Source: Cytidiella melzeri
Taxonomy: Eukaryota; Basidiomycota; Agaricomycetes; Polyporales; Irpicaceae
Direction: 5' to 3'
Assembly: GCA_022592445.1 (NCBI GenBank)
Contig: JABYQR010000043.1
Location: 62,001 to 126,000 of the forward strand
DNA length: 64,000 nucleotides
Part shown: in pieces, positions 12,690 through 63,075 of the stretch
Numbering within the stretch: position 1 is the first letter of the stretch
Layout of the letters: every line of letters starts with the position of its first letter
Made by a program: the position numbers and the translations under genes
Notes under the pieces: generated by a model
Told to the model about the DNA's origin: nothing
The model's database searches: none
The model's input: only the letters and a program-made list of their open reading frames with translations

Positions 12690-13448
12690 TGTCATGGATG
12701 GCCTGACTAGCCCTTAATTTTCGCAATTTACCTCTTGTTTTTATCTGTAAAACTCCGGGCTGCAGCTCAGTTGCAACCTTCTCTGCATACACTCCCTGTT
12801 CACGTCTATTAAGCGCCCGTATCACGTGGCTTAGATGCTCCACACGGTCACATTACTTGCTACTACGTCACACTGGCATGTGACTTAGCTTAAGTAAGAC
12901 CACATGGCTACAAGCACATGGCTCAGCCCATAGCTAGGGTTTGACGTCATAGATACTGTCCACATGGGCTCCTTATTGTTCTTTCCTTATTGTTCTCTTT
13001 ATGGAAGGATGTTCTCACAGGTGTGGGAATGGAATACAATAGTTGGTCTCCTTTTAGATAGATTCTCTCACGGGTAGAGTTCTTGGCAAGGTCTAGACAA
13101 TAGCTATTGTTCTCCTTTAGGTAGTTCTTTTGTTCTTCGTTCACATGGCTTCTTGCAAAGCCTGCCCTCAACATGGTCTGTGCGCAGGTCCCTGAAGTCT
13201 ATATATACTGCTGCATGTACGCTCCTAGCCCCCATCTCAACCTCTTGGTCTTTACTGGGCTAGGTAAGCAAATCCCCTCTGTACTACATAGCTGGTAGTC
13301 AGAATACTAACTTGGTCTTTACTGGGCTAGACAACTTGTATAAAGTCTGATAGCTGATGAGAGCACTGTGCTACACGCCTGCCACCACCTCCTCGTCGAT
13401 ATCCACTTCGTGTCCCTGTCTGTCACGTCGAGCCTTGTCTCCGTGTCA
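12690..13448 (+). mobile_element. Solo LTR A of the Gypsy-1 family
   Basis: 759 bp from TGTCATGG to CGTGTCA, homologous along its length to the LTRs of the element at 50,962-58,635. It is bordered by a perfect 5-bp target duplication GCTTG (12,685-12,689 and 13,449-13,453). The promoter (TATATATA at about 13,200) and the intron-like cassette 13,264-13,330 (67 nt, GTAAGC, TACTAAC, CTAG) are preserved. It arose by recombination between the two LTRs of a former complete copy. Confidence 0.95.
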
Positions 13449-18629: not shown

Positions 18630-19304
18630 TGACACAGAGACGGGGCTTGACGTGACAGACAGGGACACGGTGTGGATATCAACGAGGAGGTAATGGCAGG
18701 CGTGTAGCACAGTGCTCTCACCAGCTATCAGACTTTATACAAGTATCTAGCCCAGTAAAGACCAAGAGGTCGACATGGGGGCTAGGAGCATACATGCAGC
18801 TGCTTATATAGACTTCAGGGACCTGCGCACAGACCATGTTAAGGGCAGGCTTTGCAAGAAGCCGTGTGAACAAAGAACAAAAGAACTACCTAAAGGAGAA
18901 CAATAGCTATTGTCTAGACCTTGCCAAGAACTCTACTCATGAGAGAATCTATCTAAAAGGAGACCAACTATTGTATTCCATTCCCACACCTGTGAGAACA
19001 TCCTTCCATAAAGAGAACAAAAGGAGTCCATGTGAACGGTATCTATGACGTCAAACCCTAGCTATGGGCTGAGCCATGTGGTTGTAGCCATGTGGTCTTA
19101 CTTAAGCTAAGTCACATGCCAGTGTGACATAGTAGCAAGTAACGTGACCGTGTGGAGCATCTAAGCCACGTGATACGTGCGCTTAATAGACGTGCAAAGG
19201 AGTTTATGCAGAGAAGGTTGCAACTGAGCTGCAGCCCGGAGTTTTACAGATAAAAACAAGAGGTAAATTGCAAAAATTAAGGGCTAGTCAGGCCATCCAT
19301 GACA
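18630..19304 (-). mobile_element. Solo LTR B of the Gypsy-1 family, inserted in Gypsy-2 pol
   Basis: 675-bp inverted copy (TGACACAG..CATCCATGACA on the plus strand) with perfect 5-bp target duplication GATGT (18,625-18,629 and 19,305-19,309). Removing it and one target copy rejoins the Gypsy-2 frame as PTDVYHQFRLID. It has a single copy of CTTGGTCTTTACTGGGCTAG (complement, 18,747-18,766) and lacks precisely the 67-nt cassette present in the other LTRs of the family. A further deletion of about 16 bp lies near 19,020. Confidence 0.95.
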
Positions 19305-21190
19305 GATGTTTACCACCAATTTCGCCTCATTGACTCTAACGCTGTCATTGCGCGACGCCAATACAATTGTCCAAAGAAATATTGTGATACATGGCAAACA
19401 TTGCTCAATCAACATCTCGAAGCTGGCCGAATTCGACCTTCCCCCAGCCCATACGCATCCCCCGCCTTCCTCATTCCAAAGTCCGAACCCTCTGCCATGC
19501 CACATTGGGTCAACGATTACCGTGTACTCAATGCCAACACCGTTCCAGACGCTCACACTCTGCCTCTCATCAGCAACATTTTATTTGACTGCGCAAAAGG
19601 TCGCTTCTGGGCCAAGATTGACATGACGAACAGCTTCTTCCAAACTCGAGTACATTCGGACGACATCCCACTCACGGCTGTAAACACCCCCTTTGGTCTA
19701 TACGAGTGGACGGTAATGCCGCAAGGCTGTTGGAACGCTCCTGCGACTCATCAGCGGCGAATGTTCAACGCGCTGCAAGACTTCATTGGCACTATCTGTC
19801 ACGTGTACCTGGACGACATCATCATCTGGTTGTTCACTCTGGAAGAACAACGCCAAAACGTCGAAACGGTCCTCACCGCCTTACGTCGTCACTCGCTATA
19901 CTGCTCACCCAAAAAGACAAATCTATTCTGCGTCGAGCTTGATTTTCTGGGTCATCATATCTCTCGGCGTGGTGTTGAAGCAGACAACAGAAAAGTCGAA
20001 AAAGTCCTGTCTTGGCCTACACCTCAGTCAACCTCCGATGTCTTGTCATTTCTGGGCTTGGTTTGTTATATTGCGAATTTCCTCCCTACACTCGCAAAAC
20101 ATGCCCGTCTTTTGCACCAACTCACGACACATGAATTGCAAAAGAACTTCTGCTGGACTGCCACTCACGACGCCGCCTTCCAAGTGGTCAAGGATCTCGT
20201 CGTCTCTCGCAAATGTCTCACTGTGATAGACCATCAAAACCTGGGCGACAATAAAATCTTTGTGGCATGCGACGCTTCTGACTATTGTTCTGGTGCTGTT
20301 CTATTGTATGGACCCTCCCTCGAGAGTGCGCAACCTGTTGCTTTCGAGAGTCAGACCTTCAAGGCCGCTGAACTCAACTATCCGGTACACGAAAAAGAAC
20401 CACTTGCGATTGTTCGTGCCCTCCCCAAGTGGCGCGTTGAGCTTCTCGGCGTCCCCTTCCAGGTCCTCACTGACCACCGCACACTGGAAAACTTCGGAGT
20501 ACAACAACATCTTTTGCAACGGCAAGCGCGATGGCAAGAACTTCTTGGGAAACACGACTTTTCTATCAAGTACATCCCTGGCAAAGATAACGGCCCCCCC
20601 GACGCCATGTCTCGCCACCCTGTCACTATGCCGCAAGCCCGCTCTGACGCTAGCCTCGCTGTTGGTGCCGCCTCTCATCTGTCTATCTCACTCGATGCCT
20701 CCTACATTCAGCACATCAAGGACAGCTACACAGAAGATCCTTGGACTAAAACCTCGTCAACTCCCTTTGGAACGGCCATACCAAGTTGGAGTGCACGCCT
20801 GGCAAATGTGCCAAAGATTTTTTGCACGCCCTGTGCGCCGGTTGGCTCGACGGTCACACGTCAAATGATTTAACTGTACGCAACGGACTGTTGTATCTCA
20901 CCAATCGTCTTCTCATACCAAACACACGACATGTTTGAGAAAAGCTCTTCCGGCTGGCCCACGACTCTCTTGGACACTTTGGTGCAGACAAATCTTACGC
21001 TGCGCTACGCTCTGACTACTTTTGGTTGCACATGCGTAAGCAGCTGGAGGAACTGTACATCCCGATGTGCGAACAATGTCAAAGGAACAAATCTGCCAAC
21101 CACAAGCCTCGTGGACCTTTGCACCCTCTTCCTGTACCTGACCGCCGCTGTTCCTCTGTCGCCATAGACTTCGTTGGACCCTTACCGGAC

Positions 21191-30209: not shown

Positions 30210-30835
30210 AGTTCTCACGCGTCACGCCTTGCCCTCTTGCCCTCTTCCTTGCTCTCGTCCTCCCCTCTCTCTGATCCTCTCCAACGCGCTCGCCCTCATT
30301 GTCTTCTCTCGCCCTCACCCTTCTCTCGCCCCCGTCTTGATGCTGCAGCCGTTGTCCTTGCCCTTGTCGCCCTTGTTTGCACCCTTGTCGTTGGCCTCCT
30401 CATTGCCCTTGTCGTTGTCCTCTCATTGCCCTCGTCGTTGCACCCGTCCTCGCCCTCGTCATTGCCCTCGTTTTGGCCCTCCTCGCCGTCCTCTCGTTCC
30501 CCCCCTTCTGTCGCCCTTGTCTTGACGCTGTAGCTGTTGTCTTTGCCCTTGTCGCTCTCGTTTGCGCCCTCGTCGTTGCCCTCATCATTGCCCTCCTCGC
30601 TGTCCTCTCATTGCCCTCGTCGTTGCGCCCGTCCTTGCCCTCGTCATTGCCCTCAGTTTGGCCCTCCTTGCTGCCCTCCTCGTCGTCCTTCTTGCTGCCC
30701 TCGTTGTTGCCCCCTTTCTCGCCCTTGTTGCCCTCGTTTCATGCCCTTGTTGCCCTCGTTTCCCGCCCTTGCCCTTGCCCTCTGTCACTCTCCCTCGTCC
30801 TCGCCCTTGTTGCCGCCCTTGTCGCCACTCATCCT
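30210..30835 (+). repeat. C/T-rich minisatellite with 185-bp higher-order unit
   Basis: GCCCTCGTYGTT-type units. A higher-order repeat is marked by CTTGATGCTGCAGC (about 30,336) and CTTGACGCTGTAGC (about 30,521), each followed by similar order of sub-units. The same higher-order unit occurs inverted at 45.6-45.8 kb. Confidence 0.8.
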
Positions 30836-30839
30836 TCAG

Positions 30840-31300
30840 TACACGCTTGTGGCGTGGTACTGACCATACACGCCTGTGGTGTAGTCACAAACTGCATTGA
30901 GCAGTCTGTCGACACTTGTTTGCTGGCTGGACACAAAGGAGGGTTGTTGCATGAGTGAATGTGGGATTGGGGTGTGCTTGGTTCTGAATTACATGTACGT
31001 CCTCCCGCCGTCTATGTACAGTCTTTGCCCAATCACCTCGCCTCTCCACCATTAGACCAATAGGATATTTCATTGCCTGACTTGAATTCACCAGTGAGTG
31101 GTGATTTTTTACATTCCTTCATCTTTATTCCTTGCACAGCACGCTTCTGGAAAAGTGCGAGACCGAGCGGCCACGGAGTTACACAACACCTAAGCCGTCT
31201 CACTCAATCTGACCCAGAAGATGTGCTCATTCTGCTCTTCCTCGCAACGATGATGACGTTGGGGTGTCAGCAATTACGGAGTTACATAGCACCTCACTCG
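30840..31300 (+). mobile_element. Possible internally deleted derivative of the KDZ element
   Basis: 30,840-30,935 resembles 37,292-37,384 (ACACGCTTGTGG, ACACGCCTGTGG, CGACACTTGTTTGC). Then 31,150-31,205 resembles 62,940-63,070 (GCGAGACCGAGCGGCCAC, GTCTCACTCAATC). These are the two outer parts of the KDZ region in the same order but only a few hundred bases apart. No terminal repeats were confirmed. Confidence 0.35.
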
Positions 31301-44742: not shown

Positions 44743-45602
44743 CTAAGTTAACAGTTGCTGGTCCTCTTCTAATGATTCCGGTGTTGAAAATGAGTTCAAC
44801 GAATTGAAAAACCTAGTCTTTTGTCGCTCCTTCTCCTCCTTTATGAACTCCAAGTCCCTAGTCTCCTGGATGGTCCTCCAAGTCCTAAACCCATACTCCA
44901 CCCAGAAAAACAAGCCACCGGCAGTGAATTGAGTAAATGACTCCCGCTGTTCACCTGGGGCAATGTCAACGTTGCCATGTGATAGTATTGCAGAGGAAAT
45001 AAAAATGAATGCTCCAGGAGGGAACTCAATGAGAAGATTGAGCTTGCGAAGTATCAGATGGCCCCCTTTGGTTGGGTCAAAGTCTCCAGAGCAGAATATA
45101 GGGCAGATGCCATCCGCTTTGTTGGCGCAGTCTGTATGCTTGTAGGTCACTGCTCTCCTGCCGTAGTTGGTTGACTGTGCAGCAAAGAGGCTACCGTCAA
45201 AAGAATATCAGAGCCCTGGGTGATGTGCAAGAAGTGTCTTGTGAAGCTCTGCATACAAAATGTAGTGCTTAGGGAAGTAGAAAGCGAAGGCACCTAAAGA
45301 TGTGTGAGCATATATGTGCACAGACATGTACACAAGACTTACTCTTGATGAATACAACCACACGACAAACGTTTGGGTCCGAAGCAAACATATCGAGAAC
45401 TCGTTGATCGTGCTTGTTTTGGGCCAGTTTGCCTGGACGCTGTATGTAGAGTCAGAAACAGATCTACCCTTGCATGGATCACATACCTTCTGCCCACCAC
45501 CGAATGAAACACCTGAGGTGGTGCTGTGGAACTTGCCCCGCCTCTCTACATGCTTCGGAAAACGGAACTTACGTTGCGTGGCCCACAAACGACGAGGGGG
45601 CA
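44743..45602 (-). pseudogene. TET/JBP-like Fe(II)/2-oxoglutarate dioxygenase, one nonsense codon
   Basis: Minus-strand exons joined by GT..AG introns read FHSTTSGVSFGGGQK, RPGKLAQNKHDQRVLDMFAS, AFAFYFPKHYILYAELHKTL, then YGRRAVTYKHTDCANKADG, GDFDPTKGGHLILRKLNLLI, EFPPGAFIFISSAILSHGN and GEQRESFTQFTAGGLFFWVE. The iron-binding HxD (HTD, codons 45,129-45,137), the distal His (44,977-44,979) and the 2-oxoglutarate-binding Arg (44,944-44,946) are all present. Family members oxidise 5-methylcytosine. An in-frame TGA (45,208-45,210) interrupts the frame upstream of the active site, probably from CGA. The 5' part runs into a minisatellite at 45.6 kb, so the N-terminus is not defined. It is divergent from the KDZ transposase. 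Confidence 0.7.
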
Positions 45603-45860
45603 AACGAGAGCGACAAGGGCGAGGACGACGACTACAGCTTCAAGATGAGGGCAAAAGAAGGGGGGGGAACGAGAGGACGGCAAGGAGGGCAATGACGAGG
45701 GCACCGACAAGGGCGCAAACAAGGGCGACAAGGGCGAGGACAACAGCTACAGCGTCCAAACAAGGGCGAGAGAAGCGCAAGGGCGAGAGAAGGGCAAAAG
45801 CGAGAGAACGGGGGGGGGGGGGGGGGGGGGGGCAAGGATGAGGGCAAAGGCAAGGTTGGA
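45590..45860 (-). repeat. G/A-rich minisatellite, second locus, with G23 homopolymer
   Basis: Same unit family as at 30.2-30.8 kb but inverted; on the minus strand it shows CTTGAAGCTGTAG and GGACGCTGTAGC spaced like the 185-bp unit there. It contains 23 consecutive G (45,810-45,832). Lies in the interval between the TET/JBP-like and KDZ genes. Confidence 0.85.
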
Positions 45861-50956: not shown

Positions 50957-51472
50957 GATGCTGTCATGGATGGCCTGACTAGCCCTTAATTTTCGCAAAT
51001 TACCTCTTGTTTTTATCTGTAAAACTCCGGGCTGCAGCTCAGTTGCAACCTTCTCTGCATAAACTCCCTTTTCACGTCTATTAAGCGCCCGTATCACGTG
51101 GCTTAGACGCTCCACACGGTCACATTACTTGCTACTACGTCACACTGGCATGTGACTTAGCTTAAGTAAGACCACATGGCTACAAGCACATGGCTCAGCC
51201 CATAGCTAGGGTTTGACGTCATAGATACCGTCCACATGGGCTCCTTATTGTTCTTTCCCTATTGTTCTCTTTATGGAAGGATGTTCTCACAGGTGTGGGA
51301 ATGGAATACAATAGTTGGTCTCCTTTTAGATAGATTCTCTCACGAGTATAGTTCTTGGCAAGGTCTAGACAATAGCTATTGTTCTCCTTTAGGTAGTTCT
51401 TTTGTTCTTCGTTCACACGGCTTCTTGCAAAGCCTGCCCTCAACATGGTCTGTGCGCAGGTCCCTGAAGTCT

Positions 51473-51479
51473 ATATAAG
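51473..51479 (+). promoter_or_regulatory. TATA box of Gypsy-1
   Basis: TATATAA, 34 nt upstream of ATCTCGACCT, which is complementary to the site just after the LTR and therefore marks the probable RNA 5' end. Confidence 0.7.
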
Positions 51480-51536
51480 ATGCTGCATGTACGCTCCTAG
51501 CCCCCCATCTCGACCTCTTGGTCTTTACTGGGCTAG

Positions 51537-51603
51537 GTAAGCAACCCCCTCTTGTACTACATAGCTGGTAGTAACAATACTAACTTGGTCTTTACTGGGC
51601 TAG
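51537..51603 (+). other. Intron-like cassette in Gypsy-1 leader (67 nt)
   Basis: Donor GTAAGC, perfect branch TACTAAC, acceptor CTAG. CTTGGTCTTTACTGGGCTAG occurs immediately before the donor (51,517-51,536) and again as the last 20 nt of the cassette (51,584-51,603). Identical layout in the 3' LTR (58,453-58,519) and solo LTR A; absent from solo LTR B. Confidence 0.6.
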
Positions 51604-51721
51604 ATATCTGTGTAAGGTTTATAGCTGGTGAGAGCATTGTGCTATACGCCTGCCACCACCTCGTCGTCGTCTTCCACTCCGTGTCCCTAGTCGTTACGTC
51701 GAGCTCCGTCTCCGTGACATT

Positions 51722-51731
51722 AGGTCGAGAT
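51722..51731 (+). other. Putative self-primer binding site of Gypsy-1
   Basis: AGGTCGAGAT, two bases after the LTR, is the exact complement of ATCTCGACCT at 51,507-51,516, the predicted RNA 5' end. Tf1/sushi-type elements prime reverse transcription this way. No tRNA-like TGG start is present. Confidence 0.6.
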
Positions 51732-51793
51732 CGTTGTGAAAACCCTGGGTCCCCCATTCCCACCGTTTTAAAAAGTTTATTCCTGTTTGACGA

Positions 51794-51866
51794 GTACGTC
51801 TCCGGTCTTCTCATACCGTTGAGCTACACTTACGTCGTCCGTTTCTACCCCCTGCGCGTTGTCTAG
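51794..51866 (+). other. Predicted 73-nt intron that creates the ORF0 start codon
   Basis: Donor GTACGT after ..TTTGACGA and acceptor GTCTAG before TGCCTAAGG. Joining A (51,793) to TG (51,867-51,868) gives ATGCCTAAGG in the ORF0 frame. A CTTAC branch-like motif is at about 51,829 and the 3' part is pyrimidine rich. Confidence 0.55.
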
Positions 51867-52594
51867 TGCCTAAGGACACACGCCCCCGTTTTTCTAAGAA
51901 CCTCCCTGCCACTGAGCCTCAGCTCAAGAGGTCTCTTCCACCATCTTTCCTCGACGCTCTCGCTGAAAAGCGCAAGAGTGGTCAACCTCATCGTTGGTCT
52001 GACAAAGACCTGGTCACTGTCGCGAAATACGTGTCCAAGAAGCCGCCTGTCAAAGGCATCACCCTCACCGTCCCCTCTTACGAGGAAAACCGACAACTTC
52101 GCGCCTCCGCACGAGCATACGGAGAACGAGCTGCTGAGGAGCGTGACCGCACCTTAGCCGAGCAACAGACCCACAAGCTCACTTTTGCAGAACGACTAGC
52201 AAAGCTCCCTGCACCAACTCCCGCCCCCGCTGCACCAAAGCCGGTGTTGATCGACTTCAAGAAGTTGTCACCGGTTGATCTTGTAGGCATCTTCAAGCCA
52301 AAACTTACCGCCGTCCGTACTCGCTTGCAAGCTCTCACAGAGCTTGAGGAACTCCTGAACCGCGCCAACCCCGACCACCGTCGCGCCCTGCTCCACCTCG
52401 TCGTCAAGGTCAATCGTTTCCTCAACCGAGTCGACGATCTTGCACCCATCACAGCAGACCGCGAGTGGCAGCTCCTAGACTGGGGTTGCAAAGCAATTGG
52501 GAAGGTTTCTTTTAAGCAGCTTCGTAAAAACTACGATAGAGTTCTAGCACAACTTAACGTAGTCAATAACGATAGCTACTTCGAGTGGATCTAG
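51867..52594 (+). CDS. Gypsy-1 ORF0: extra protein upstream of Gag
   Basis: An open frame of about 242 codons ending at 52,594. It contains no ATG and no Met codon at all; genomic reading would have to start at GTG 51,866. The predicted 73-nt intron supplies a split ATG (MPKDTRPRFSKNLPATEPQ). The protein is basic at the N-terminus, then charged and helical (EENRQLRASARAYGERAAEE), with a proline-rich linker (PAPTPAPAAPKP) and a second helical domain (LNRANPDHRRALLHLVVKVN). No known domain was recognised. It ends 70 nt before the Gag ATG. Codon usage looks protein-like. It might be an accessory or structural protein of the element. Confidence 0.65.
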
Positions 52595-52664
52595 ACAGTC
52601 CACAGTTTTCACCACGTCCTGTAAATAATTATATACATTTCTACGCCTCATCACAGCACCAGAC

Positions 52665-53927
52665 ATGGACCAGAATCAACAGCCCGCTGCCCCTGCTACT
52701 CCAGCTGCCCCAGTTGCCAATCTGAGCCAGCAAGACGTCCTAAATATATTGGGCGTTCTGTCACAAAGGATGATTGACCTCACCAATCAAGTGGCTGCCT
52801 TGGCAGCTGTTCAGGCACCAGCCGTCGCTGCGGCCACGCACACGTCCCAAGAACGGAGTATTGTCGAGAAGCCCGTCTCTTTTAAGGGAAAAACGTCGTC
52901 GGAAGCAAGACTTTTCCGGCATGCGTTCATCGTCTGGGCTCAGAACCAGGGCAAGGCGTTTTTCCAACAGGACGCACAAGGCCAGGTCCGAGTGGACAAC
53001 AATGGCGCGAGGATCTTTGATCCTCACAAGCTCATCACCAGTGCTCTGTCGTTCATGCAAGACGACGCAGCCGACTGGGCTCGCCCTCATATTGAGGAGC
53101 TAGCAAACAGCAAACCAGCTTTTGGCAACAGCTGGGATACGTTTATCGAGGCTTTCAAAGCCAAATTTGAGCCAATAGATGCCGTCATGGAGGCTAAGAC
53201 GAAAATAGCCAACATGAAACAAGGCAACAAAACCTTTGCCGCCCATATCTCCGAGTTCGAGACCTGGGCTCCTCGCACTGGCTGGAGCCAGCAGGACCTC
53301 TTCGATCGTCTCAAGTCGAGCTTGAGCACCGAGTACTTGCAACGTGTCTCGTACTTTCAAACCCGCGCTGCTACCTACGACGCTCTCAAGGACCAGTGCA
53401 AGGCAGTCGATGCTCAGCTCGCCGATTTGCGAAACAGCACGGGCAAGGTTATGGTGGACAGTTCCTCGGGACACGGCAAGTCCCACCAGCAAGCGTTCCG
53501 CGATCCCAACGCTATGGAGATCGACGCCTCCCGCTTCTCTGCCTCGTTTGACTCGCTCTTCGCGGGTCTGGGCAAGCAGGAGATCTTCCAGAAATGGAAG
53601 AAGGAGATGAGCAAGCGCTGCTCGGTTTGTGGGTCCGAGAACCACAAGAAGCGGGACTCGAAGCACCCCGATGACCCGGTCTGCAACCATTGCGGTGGTA
53701 CCGGTCACTGGGGGGCAGTTTGTCTGAAACGGCTTCAAGGCGTCCCTAAAGGACAAAAAGTTGCTGCAACCTCGTCGACTTCGTCGACCACCACTGCGCC
53801 GAAGCAAGATGCATCCAGTGACAAGGATGCTAAGATTGCTGCTCTCAAGGACATGCTAGACATCCAGAAAAAGCAGATGGATGAGATGGCAGCCAAGATT
53901 AATGCGGTTTTTGAAGCGGACTCGTGA
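52665..53927 (+). CDS. Gypsy-1 Gag
   Basis: 420 residues from ATG 52665 (MDQNQQPAAPATPAAPVANL), the first ATG downstream of the predicted transcript start. The N-terminus has a coiled-coil-like segment, followed by the capsid domain (EARLFRHAFIVWAQNQGKAF; WDTFIEAFKAKFEPIDAVME; NKTFAAHISEFETWAPRTGW). A first Cys pair CSVCGSENHKKRD precedes a canonical zinc knuckle CNHCGGTGHWGAVC (CX2CX4HX4C). A C-terminal coiled coil (ALKDMLDIQKKQMDEMAAKI) ends the protein. Intact. It packages the element RNA in virus-like particles. Pol follows in the +1 frame. Confidence 0.92.
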   Translation: MDQNQQPAAPATPAAPVANLSQQDVLNILGVLSQRMIDLTNQVAALAAVQAPAVAAATHTSQERSIVEKPVSFKGKTSSEARLFRHAFIVWAQNQGKAFFQQDAQGQVRVDNNGARIFDPHKLITSALSFMQDDAADWARPHIEELANSKPAFGNSWDTFIEAFKAKFEPIDAVMEAKTKIANMKQGNKTFAAHISEFETWAPRTGWSQQDLFDRLKSSLSTEYLQRVSYFQTRAATYDALKDQCKAVDAQLADLRNSTGKVMVDSSSGHGKSHQQAFRDPNAMEIDASRFSASFDSLFAGLGKQEIFQKWKKEMSKRCSVCGSENHKKRDSKHPDDPVCNHCGGTGHWGAVCLKRLQGVPKGQKVAATSSTSSTTTAPKQDASSDKDAKIAALKDMLDIQKKQMDEMAAKINAVFEADS

Positions 53928-53929
53928 CA

Positions 53930-56900
53930 CAGCCGCAGCTGCGAGTCCCCCAGATACCCTATCCTTGCCTCCTTCGTCGCCTTCGTCGTCTTCTGCCTCG
54001 TCTTCCTCGTGTACAACATCTACTCCATGCCCGTCGTCTACTATCTCCTCGTGTACTATATCATCGCTAGATCGGTTATCATCTCATTTCCGTGTACATG
54101 TACTAGTTAAAGGTCTGAATAGAAGCATTCGCGTTCCTGCTATGATCGATTCAGGAGCTACGGCTTTATTCATCAGTCACCAGTTCGTCAAGAAGCATAA
54201 GATTATTCAACACCCGCTCGAAAGGGTTATTCATTGCATAACATTGATGGAACTAAGAATAAAGCTGGCGGATTAACGCACTTCGTTCGCCTTACACTCA
54301 CAGTCGGAGATCACACGGAAAAGGCAGAGTTTCTCGTCACGGACTTAGGTCCAGAAGACGTCATTCTTGGGCTACCATGGCTCAAGTGCGTAAACCCTAC
54401 CGTCAACTGGGAAAAAGGAGAAATGACAATTCCGAGCGGCTCGGAAGAATCTCCTGACGAACCTTTCCAGAAGATTGATGGTAATCGCAAAGAACGTAGG
54501 CAGTGGGTCAAAGCCGGATTATCCAAGACACCACTGATGAGGTCTGGTGTATGGCCGGCTTCACCTACTCTACCAAGCTTGCTGCCGAAGCAAACGAGCT
54601 AAAGCTCAGCGTTCCTTCGAAGACATTGTTCCATCAGAGTATCACAGACACGCTAAAGTCTTCTCTGAGGAAGAGTCTAATCGACTACCCCAGCATCAGC
54701 CCTGGGACCATTCGATTGATCTCAAACCAGACGCTCCTGAGACCATCAAATCGAAAGTTTATCCTATGCCCCTGAACGAACAAGCCGAGCTTGACAAGTT
54801 CATTCAGGAGAACCTATCAAAAGGTTACATTACGCCTTCTAAGTCTCCGATGGCTTCTCCGGTCTTCTTCATCAAAAAGAAGGATAACAAACTCCGACTT
54901 ATTCAGGACTATCGAAAACTCAACGACATCACTGTGAAAAACCGCTACCCTCTACCGCTTGCCACCGACATCATCAACAAGCTCAAGGGTGCAAAGATCT
55001 TCACCAAATTCGATGTTCGTTGGGGATATCACAATGTCCGCATCAAAGAAGGAGATGAGTACAAAGCGGCGTTCGTTACCAACCGAGGACTCTTCGAACC
55101 TAAAGTTATGTTCTTCGGTCTCACGAACTCACCCGCTACCTTCCAAGCTCTGATGGACAACATCTTCGCCGACCTCGTCGCCGAGGGCAAGGTGGCTGTC
55201 TATCTAGATGACATCTTGATCTGGAGCAACAACCTGACAGAGCATCGCAAGGTTGTACATGAAGTCCTCGAGCGACTTCAACAGCACGACTCTACCTCCG
55301 GCCGGAAAAGTGCGAGTTTGAGAAATCTGAGATCGAGTACCTGGGTTGATCATTCGCGCCGGCGAAGTAGCTATGGACCCTGTCAAAGTCCAAGCAGTTT
55401 CTACGTGGCCCACCCCAAGAACCTCAAAGAAGTTAGAGGGTTCATCGGGTTTGCCAACTTCTACCGACGCTTCATCCAAGACTTCTCAAAGCACGCGCGG
55501 CCTCTACACGACCTTACTAAGAAGGACGTACCGTTGTCTGGGGTCCAGCACAAGAGACTGCCTTCACGCTGCTAAAGAAGGCCTTTACCACTAAGCCTAT
55601 CTTGGCAGTCTGGGACCCTGAACTCCCTACACGTCTAGAAGTCGATGCCTCGGGCTATGCGACCGGTGGAATCATCTCCCAGAAATCGAAGGAAGATGGA
55701 TTCTACCACCCTATCGCCTACCGGTCCGCATCTATGACTGAAGCAGAACGTAACTACGAAATCTTTGATCGGGAGATGTTAGCCATCACCGAAGCTCTCA
55801 AAGATTGGCGCCACTACCTTGAGGGGCTCAAGGAACCGTTTGAGATCTGGACAGATCACGCAAACCTGCAGTACTGGAAGACTGCGCAACACCTCACTCG
55901 ACGTCAAGCACGTTGGTCATTACTTTTGGCTGACTTCGACTTCGTGTTGGTACACAAGCCCGGTAGTACCATGATACACGCTGATCCTCTCTCTCGTCTT
56001 CACTCTCACGCTGTCACGGACGAAGAAGACAACAAGGATCAGGTGGTACTGAAACCGGAACACTTCCGCATCCTCGCCACCAGTGCACTTGCCACTGCTT
56101 CTCCGCTCGAATCAAAGATCCGAGAATGCACGGAACAAGAAGCAGAAGTCGCACAAGCTCTCGCTACCCTTCGAAAGAAGGGTCCTCGCAAACTTGTCGG
56201 CGGTTTACTCGAATGGGAAGAGAGTGACGGACTCATCTATTACAAGGGAAAACTTTATATCCCTAAAACAAAGAGCTCCGTTACGAAATTGTCAAATCTT
56301 GCCATGACACACCCGCGGCTGGTCATCCGGGCAAACACGGCACCATAGAGCTAGTCTCACGACACTATTGGTGGCCAAAGATGAATGCCTTCATCGAGAC
56401 TTACGTACTAGGTTGTGATCGCTGCCAACGCTACAAGTCAGCTCCACACCCTAAAGCAGTACTACAGCCTCAGGAAACTCCGGCCGGACCTTGGGAACAC
56501 GTCGGAGTAGATCTCATCACTCAGCTGCCACCCTCTAAGGGATTTGATTCGATCGCGGTCTACGTCGACCATTACTCCGATCAAACGCACATCATCCCTA
56601 CTACTACTAAGGTTAACGCTGAGGGGATTGCCGATCTACATTACAAAGAAGTATTCCGACTTCACGGCATTCCCAAGAAAGTGTTCTCTGACCGAGGACC
56701 CCAGTTTGCAGCACGCTTCATGCGTGCGCTCTATCACCGCCTAGGCATAGAGACTGGTTTTACGACCGCCTATCATCCGCAAGGAAATGGCAAAGTCGAA
56801 CGCAAAAACCAGGATATCGAACAGTATCTGCGTCTATTCTGTCAGCAACGACAAGACGACTGGGTCGATCATCTGCCGGCGGCTGAGTTTGCACTCAACT

Positions 56901-57712
56901 CGCGAGTACATGCGGGTAACTCACAAACACCGTTTGAAGTCATCTACGGATATCGCCCCGACTTCACTATACCAGTTGGCAAGCGAAGCAATATCCCTTC
57001 ACTCGATGAGCGCCTTGATAATATGGCTCGAGTACGAAAGGAGACCGAAGCAGCTCTTCGTCTAAGCAAAGAAAAGATGAAGCAACTTTACGAGTCTGAG
57101 AAGCGTTCTCCACGCGTCTTCCAAGTAGGGGACATGGTCTGGCTAAACGCTAAGAACGTCCAGATTCATCAGGCTACCCCTAAACTCGGTCCTCGACAGC
57201 TCGGCCCGTACAAGGTCATCGAACGCATTGGCGATCTCGATTACAAACTCGATCTACCCAGCTATCTCCGAATCCACCCCGTCTTCCACATCAACCGTCT
57301 AAGTCCCTGGCACGACAACGGCAAAGATGTACCTCCACCTCCTGATCCTATCGTCATAGAAGGAGAAGAACAGTACGTCGTCGAAAAAGTGCTAGACAGC
57401 AGGCTACACGGACGTTGGAAGAAATTGCAATTCCTTGTCAAATGGGAAGGGTATTCAGACGGACACAATAGCTGGGAACCAGTAGAAAACCTCGAGAATA
57501 GTCAAGAAGCAATTGACGACTTCTACAAAGCAAACCCCGGAGCGCCCCGGGTCATCAAAGCTTCACTCTTCGCGGATCTCCGCTCGCACTTTCGGGAATT
57601 CAATACCCAGACCGACCCCGCTTTCCTTCGCACGATCTATCCATCTACATACGATCTTAGCTGGGATGAAGGCAAACACATCGGTCTGGATATCTCAAGA
57701 ACATCACACTGA
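53930..57712 (+). pseudogene. Gypsy-1 Pol: protease, RT, RNase H, integrase, chromodomain, with several 1-nt frameshifts
   Basis: Domains in order: retropepsin (AMIDSGATALFISHQFV, about 54,140; then GPEDVILGLPWLK); reverse transcriptase (PVFFIKKKDNKLRLIQDYRK, FDVRWGYHNVRIKEGDEYKA, catalytic VYLDDILIW at about 55,195); RNase H (LEVDASGYATGGIISQKS); integrase zinc region (HDTPAAGHPGKHG, CDRC); integrase core (VGVDLIT, FSDRGPQFAARF, QGNGKVERKN, all three acidic residues present); GPY/F-like LGPYKVIERIGDLDYKLDLP; chromodomain (FLVKWEGYSDGHNSWEPVEN). Frame changes occur near 54,230, 54,510-54,600, 55,290, 55,340, 55,420, 55,535 and 56,270, several being visible one-base losses next to short runs. 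The integrase-chromodomain frame (56,381-57,712) is uninterrupted. Confidence 0.93.
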
Positions 57713-57877: not shown

Positions 57878-58635
57878 TGTCATGGATGGCCTGACTAGCC
57901 CTTAATTTTCGCAATTTACCTCTTGTTTTTATCTGTAAAACTCCGGGCTGCAGCTCAGTTGCAACCTTCTCTGCATAAACTCCCTTTTCACGTCTATTAA
58001 GCGCCCGTATCACGTGGCTTAGACGCTCCACACGGTCACATTACTTGCTACTACGTCACACTGGCATGTGACTTAGCTTAAGTAAGACCACATGGCTACA
58101 AGCACATGGCTCAGCCCATAGCTAGGGTTTGACGTCATAGATACCGTCCACATGGGCTCCTTATTGTTCTTTCCCTATTGTTCTCTTTATGGAAGGATGT
58201 TCTCACAGGTGTGGGAATGGAATACAATAGTTGGTCTCCTTTTAGATAGATTCTCTCACGAGTAGAGTTCTTGGCAAGGTCTAGACAATAGCTATTGTTC
58301 TCCTTTAGGTAGTTCTTTTGTTCTTCGTTCACACGGCTTCTTGCAAAGCCTGCCCTCAACATGGTCTGTGCGCAGGTCCCTGAAGTCTATATAAGATGCT
58401 GCATGTACGCTCCTAGCCCCCCATCTCGACCTCTTGGTCTTTACTGGGCTAGGTAAGCAACCCCCTCTTGTACTACATAGCTGGTAGTAACAATACTAAC
58501 TTGGTCTTTACTGGGCTAGATATCTGTGTAAGGTTTATAGCTGGTGAGAGCATTGTGCTATACGCCTGCCACCACCTCGTCGTCGTCTTCCACTCCGTGT
58601 CCCTAGTCGTTACGTCGAGCTCCGTCTCCGTGACA
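57878..58635 (+). repeat. 3' LTR of Gypsy-1
   Basis: 758 bp, two visible differences from the 5' LTR (GCAATTTAC and GAGTAGAG instead of GCAAATTAC and GAGTATAG). Preceded by a polypurine tract and followed by target copy GATGC. Confidence 0.97.
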
Positions 58636-58640
58636 GATGC

Positions 58641-62745: not shown

Positions 62746-62937
62746 GCAGAAGCATGTCATGTGTTTACCTTAGCTAGATCACTGCCAAATGCCCATACAT
62801 TGGCCACTCAAACAACATGGACTTAGACTAACAGCCAAGATTGCCTGCGTTGCCTCAGAATTGTGTGTAGACTCTGTATGTAATGAAGCGAGCATCTGCC
62901 CTTCATCCTCCCTGTTCTTTGTACAACATGTTGTTGT

Positions 62938-63075
62938 GGGAAGGCGTGAGACTGAGCAGTCACAGAGTTACATAACACTTCAGCTGTCTCACTCATTCTA
63001 CATGTCTGTGGGAAGGCGTGAGACCGAGCGGCCACAGAGTTACATAACACTTAAGCTGTCTCACTCAATCCGACC
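62938..63075 (+). repeat. Tandem duplication of about 63 bp near the KDZ right end
   Basis: Two adjacent copies starting GTGGGAAGGCGTGAGAC and ending GTCTCACTCA, with GAGTTACATAACACTT inside. A third, diverged copy is at 31,150-31,205. Confidence 0.85.

Follow-up and report, generated by a model that had tools for sequence, protein, structure and literature searches.

The DNA analysed here, a window of 64,000 nucleotides (nt) from the 49.7 Mb genome of Cytidiella melzeri (731 contigs), carries an LTR element which, like all its features given below, lies on the forward strand. Its 5' LTR (TGTCA...TGACA) is found at 50962..51719, with ends placed from the match track and the sequence, and differs by 2 mismatches from the 3' LTR, which was located by the LTR match at 57878..58635 (offset 6916). 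A 5 bp target-site duplication, GATGC, can be read in the sequence on both sides (left copy 50957..50961, right copy 58636..58640). The gag gene occupies 52665..53927 and its product is recognized by Pfam Retrotrans_gag, with Ty3_capsid falling under its cut-off; in this copy its start codon is the first ATG of the unspliced RNA. The pol region (53881..57712), spread over several frames in the window copy, encodes reverse transcriptase (RT), RNase H, integrase, a Tf2-1-type SH3 domain and a chromodomain, the latter C-terminal to the integrase core (Pfam Chromo, 4.3e-15, residues 332-383, after rve and SH3_Tf2-1). Between the integrase ORF, which stops at 57712, and the 3' LTR (57878) the window copy has only 165 nt, and no env of the errantivirus kind follows pol. 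The element is a chromodomain-bearing Ty3/Gypsy retrotransposon, probably of the self-priming kind. Counted by the ends of the intron described below, the genome contains roughly 270-300 copies of its leader (donor, 369 minus 73 in the control; acceptor, 313 minus 45 in the control). Two more LTRs of the same family, ca. 5.2 kb apart, are present in opposite orientation at 12690-13448 and 18630-19305 of the window. There are also a 185-nt unit in tandem (30306-30675, 85% alike) with a partial inverted repeat at 45588-45819, and a 64-nt unit present twice at 62935-63070, with starts 72 nt apart, and a third time at 31146-31209.

The RNA of the element is predicted to begin at 51507, 35 nt downstream of a TATA-like box (51472..51477). 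The preliminary description had already placed the start here, and the predicted position gains an independent basis from the fact that the first 10 bases (51507..51516) are the reverse complement of 51722..51731, which is predicted to be a primer-binding site (PBS) of the Tf1 type, 2 nt after the LTR. The RNA 5' end would thus be its own primer. With both sites located by motif and few mismatches tolerated, the pair was found in 60 of 61 copies (10/10 pairing in 52 of them and 9/10 in 8), the exception being L012, which has a deletion in the second (PBS) site. Variation is as low as 0.6% over 51720-51731 vs. 12.7% in the neighbouring U5 (51610-51719). Upstream of 51507 the U3 does contain ATGs, for example at 51480 and 51487. 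A scan for sigma-70 type promoters gave no match, that consensus being irrelevant to a fungus. Some copies have a shorter form of the LTR, with ca. 66 nt missing just 3' of the predicted RNA start (L003, L019, L025, L028, L030, L047, L060, L065, L073, and L089), in which the distance from start to PBS is ca. 150 vs. 216; this form apparently derives from recombination between two GGTCTTTACTGGGCTAG repeats (window 51520, 51587).

In Tf1, the first 11 bases of the RNA pair with the PBS (PMC7175516). The arrangement predicted here is like that of this Schizosaccharomyces pombe element, and of the Tf1/sushi group of self-priming Ty3/Gypsy elements in general (Cryptococcus Tcn1 is a proposed member), in that the first bases of the RNA can pair with a PBS that closely follows the LTR. 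The Tf2-1-type SH3 domain of the integrase is another point in common. Unlike in the Tf1/sushi elements, there is here an ATG-poor leader of 1.1-1.3 kb with an extra ORF and an intron. For Tf2, the relevant part of the same source mentions a cryptic intron in connection with RNA silencing, and not a splice-made start codon (PMC7175516).

Within the leader of the window copy (51507..52664), the preliminary description had pointed out a GTACGT donor at 51794 and a CTAG acceptor ending at 51866, and both are present as claimed. They would delimit an intron of 73 nt (51794..51866) preceded by a predicted exon 1 (51507..51793) with an A as its last base. Behind the intron comes the second exon part of ORF0 (51867..52594), consisting of TG, 241 codons and TAG. 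When 51793 is joined to 51867 the sequence reads ATG, precisely in the ORF0 frame. To find out how general this is we compared other copies, all of them from this one genome. The 89 loci with a leader match were reduced to 66 after removal of duplicates and 61 of these were used, 56 with the intron and 5 without it. Five were left out: L061 and L067 have the junction but contain insertions or align poorly, L082 and L083 lack any matching DNA ahead of the intron, and L075 is misaligned in its 5' part, although its donor and acceptor are intact. The sample is mostly composed of the best ca. 40 and the best ca. 150 places of the searches, and hence leans to copies near that of the window. As the intronless copies were taken from targeted searches (L042 and L046 from one with ORF0, the others from one with the joined junction), 5 out of 61 is not a frequency; genome-wide, there are 7 junctions (0-2 mismatches) vs. 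about 270-300 intron ends.

The most conspicuous property of the leader is its lack of ATGs. There is none in the window copy from 51507 to 52664 (1158 nt), the first being that of Gag at 52665, exactly as had been described. The expectation by chance had been put at about 18, a figure that has to be lowered to 14 (base composition) or 7.0 (dinucleotide-preserving shuffles); zero was reached by 2 of 5000 such shuffles. Control regions of the same copy are not depleted, with 12 ATGs in 545 nt of U3, 21 in 1263 nt of gag and 40 in 3785 nt of pol. Among the other copies the depletion is largely kept: the leader could be measured in 49 of the 56 intron-bearing copies (1,089-1,326 nt), the other seven having no Gag start in the DNA compared (L076, L079, L080, L081, L084, L091, and L092), and 32 of the 49 are free of ATG, while 14 have one and 3 have two. 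This makes 20 ATGs vs. 358 expected from dinucleotide shuffles, although the leaders are related and so these are not 49 independent trials. Single-linkage grouping of the 61 copies at 5% divergence gives 18 clusters. An intron-bearing leader could be measured in 10 of them, and in 8 of the 10 at least one such leader is ATG-free. The compared copies span several Gag N-termini and both shorter and longer stretches before Gag.

Within ORF0 alone, where shuffling of synonymous codons predicts 2.1 ATGs and gives zero in 7% of 5000 trials (not significant), the lack of ATG in a single copy is only suggestive, and it is the other copies that carry the case. C-to-T changes that create an ATG were seen at 9 of 17 ACG sites, vs. 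46 of 57 other NCG sites (51600-52594), and relative to the window copy there are 18 distinct ATG-creating substitutions where 28.2 are expected, or 75 vs. 186 if every copy-event is counted. We had to reject the idea that ATG avoidance is the strongest trinucleotide effect, since ATG is the 7th lowest of 64 in substitution ratio, and the substitution test alone is therefore not specific to ATG.

The splice sites are well preserved in the 56 intron-bearing copies, 55 of which have an unaltered A|GT and 55 an unaltered AG|TG. The full GTACGT donor is found in 53 and a TAG or CAG acceptor in 55, the intron length is 73 in 52, and at least 53 have a branch-like CTNAY motif whose start is 37-39 nt from the end of the intron. 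The exon end and donor (51786-51799) vary by ca. 1% vs. ca. 5% in the intron middle, and the four bases 3' of the acceptor show zero variation. The CTAG bases differ from the window at 15% of the cells, as the pyrimidines ahead of the acceptor AG vary. In one copy, L004, a one-base deletion (equal to window 51865-51868) removes the acceptor G and by itself makes a genomic ATG in the ORF0 frame, the sole ATG in the leader of this copy.

Splicing of 51794-51866 is supported by the genomic copies that are devoid of exactly this stretch and retain the leader around it. A search of the genome with the joined junction turned up 7 places with no more than 2 mismatches, among which 4 fit exactly. Allowing up to 3 mismatches there were 31 places vs. 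13 for a reversed control, which means that the 24 places with three mismatches tell little, and only the first seven were followed. At 6 of the 7 the match stops at 51793 and restarts at 51867, with the intron missing as one unit, while L067 is off by 2 nt upstream. Some of these copies have very close intron-bearing relatives. Apart from the intron itself, the intronless L062 and the intron-bearing L091 show no difference in the columns compared within 51600-52591 (gaps not counted), and by BLAST they agree at 100% of 775 bases past the junction and at 98.4% of 427 bases ahead of it, a match that reaches into the LTR. Similarly, the intronless L046 and the intron-bearing L009 are 99.7% identical along 2.2 kb past the junction and 97.8% along 0.8 kb ahead of it; in both of them the similarity ends at the LTR edge, and hence they are separate insertions. 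In the best tree of the 61 copies the five intronless rows require 5 changes (bootstrap 5-95% range 5-5), and none of them groups with another (n = 5). Such solitary positions fit poor propagation, although five is few. Since five separate losses coincide to the base at both ends, with GT and AG as the limits of the missing stretch, the intronless copies are best read as reverse-transcribed spliced RNA. The possibility that the intron is a piece of decayed coding DNA was set aside, as the precise losses speak against it.

As for ORF0 itself, the frame of 242 codons without internal Met is indeed there, open to the stop at 52592-52594, and it is under purifying selection, with a pN/pS of 0.12 (1830 pairs, 61 copies). 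This value speaks against a random open frame, and the two wrong frames gave 1.7 and 2.6 (31 of the 61 copies). When the ORF0 frame was followed across the acceptor in the 56 intron-bearing copies, pN/pS was 3.7 inside the intron vs. 0.18 in the first 20 codons past it, so that selection on the ORF0 protein begins at the junction. In spite of there being no protein constraint in the intron, the frame stays open through it (window 51791-51865) in 53 of the 56. Three of the 61 copies have a stop inside ORF0, and in four (L006, L008, L062, and L091) the net gap relative to the window is not a multiple of three, that of L091 being at the last codon. No Pfam family matched ORF0, even at E 10. Among 5.8 billion proteins no relative was found outside Cytidiella melzeri, by a search that needs shared 5-residue words and similar length and that distant relatives can escape. 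The sole match, P0001, is annotated as Cytidiella melzeri (1 match among 1572 candidates for the single-sequence query, and 1 among 7998 scored candidates for a 9-row alignment), and it matches a locus in the genome of the window at 99% over its residues 7-188. A structure model from the single sequence is helical, but with a mean pLDDT of 53.5 and a pTM of 0.25 it is too poor to judge the fold.

We believe that these features describe a switch. Given an ATG-poor leader and a 73-nt intron whose loss makes the ORF0 start, splicing likely puts ORF0 in the place of Gag as the frame that is translated first, a reading to which, judging from the genomic sequences, we would give roughly four chances in five. 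In an RNA transcribed from the LTR the first AUG would be the one of Gag (this holds for the window copy and for 32 of the 49 leaders), and once the intron is removed the AUG of ORF0 would come first, leaving Gag as a downstream frame. Scanning ribosomes would then arrive at Gag on the unspliced RNA and at ORF0 on the spliced one. The spliced RNA would keep the self-primer and the PBS, and its occasional reverse transcription would account for the ca. 7 intronless copies. Since nearly all copies keep the intron, the unspliced RNA would be the form that usually propagates.

The alternative that survives best, in our opinion an unlikely one, is that Gag, too, is made from the spliced RNA, by reinitiation once ORF0 has been translated; the intron would then be an ordinary 5' one, and the unspliced RNA no more than the packaged genome. 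The short distance between the two genes would suit this scheme, with just 70 nt, ATG-free, from the ORF0 stop to the Gag ATG in the window, and so would the presence of the Gag start in all five intronless copies of the tree (that of L066 is soon followed by a stop in frame). But reinitiation after a frame of 242 codons is generally poor. Besides, in most copies the intron is, like the exons, free of ATG, something that matters only if the unspliced RNA is translated, and the failure of the five intronless copies to group looks as if they propagated badly, with the reserve already made about their number. A considerably less probable option is that ORF0 starts on the unspliced RNA, at the GUG of 51866-51868 or at another near-cognate codon, and that splicing is incidental. 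In the 55 copies, out of 56, that keep AG|TG, a GTG is found exactly at the place of the assembled ATG, so that weak initiation at this GUG may occur, and the frame is open through the intron, but the GUG is forced by AG|TG and needs no separate explanation. The open frame upstream lacks protein constraint, as indicated by its pN/pS, and the low variation of the exon end and donor relative to the intron middle is as for a donor in use. Finally, the origin of the intronless copies by DNA deletion, with no splicing at all, is hardly credible, for the same stretch would have been lost to the base in five lineages, with GT and AG at its ends, and the predicted RNA start and PBS are kept in all five.

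There are cellular genes in which the start codon is split by an intron and A|TG is joined by splicing, and the env AUG of Drosophila errantiviruses is possibly formed at a splice junction. Unlike the cellular split start codons, the one proposed here would act in a mobile element, as a switch between two of its proteins. With regard to intron-split start codons, no relevant paper was recognized by title or abstract start among the matches listed. Among the literature matches listed for splice-made start codons, where subscription work, including the older work on env splicing in Drosophila errantiviruses, is thinly covered, no retroelement is so described. They do not contradict the statement of the preliminary description that no such retroelement is known, and this may be the first case.

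What is already known, from the parts of these sources that deal with it, are spliced accessory or Gag mRNAs (PMC4276936, PMC8892269) and ORFs located before gag (PMC11952523). In the Drosophila errantiviruses (gypsy) the RNA that is not spliced serves as genome, and a spliced form of it gives an extra protein (PMC4276936). The element described here would be similar in deriving an additional protein from spliced RNA, a proposal in which splicing is read from intronless copies, but the env RNA of the errantiviruses is without gag and pro-pol, whereas here the loss amounts to only 73 nt and gag is preceded by the extra ORF. In the Arabidopsis Ty1/Copia element EVD, splicing together with early polyadenylation gives a Gag-only mRNA, shGAG (PMC8892269). 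As proposed here, it is the keeping or removal of an intron that decides the protein output of one element; unlike here, no assembled start codon is described in the pertinent sections of that work (PMC8892269). The MDG1-group elements have accessory sORF1 and sORF2, typically before gag, and the corresponding part of their description reports no evidence of splicing of the full-length transcript, sORF2-like proteins having been sought with canonical start codons (PMC11952523). ORF0 resembles these in its position before gag, with 242 aa vs. the short ORF with transmembrane FAST-like features of the MDG1 type.

LTR elements need much Gag, some Pol and intact genomic RNA, and all of it has to come from one promoter. 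On balance, and with less assurance than for the switch itself, we favour the broader view that the leader is kept free of ATG so that retention of the intron yields Gag and its removal a dedicated accessory protein, in what would be a one-codon splicing switch not described in any retroelement, with the intronless copies as its by-products. Expression of the element would then depend on a start codon that is missing from its intron-bearing genomic copies. If this is true, to purge the leader of ATG and to assemble a start codon by splicing would be a minimal and testable way of adding an accessory protein without disturbing Gag. Intronless genomic copies allow the splice to be deduced from DNA, a test that is applicable to other fungal elements, in which upstream ORFs that look startless may escape annotation.
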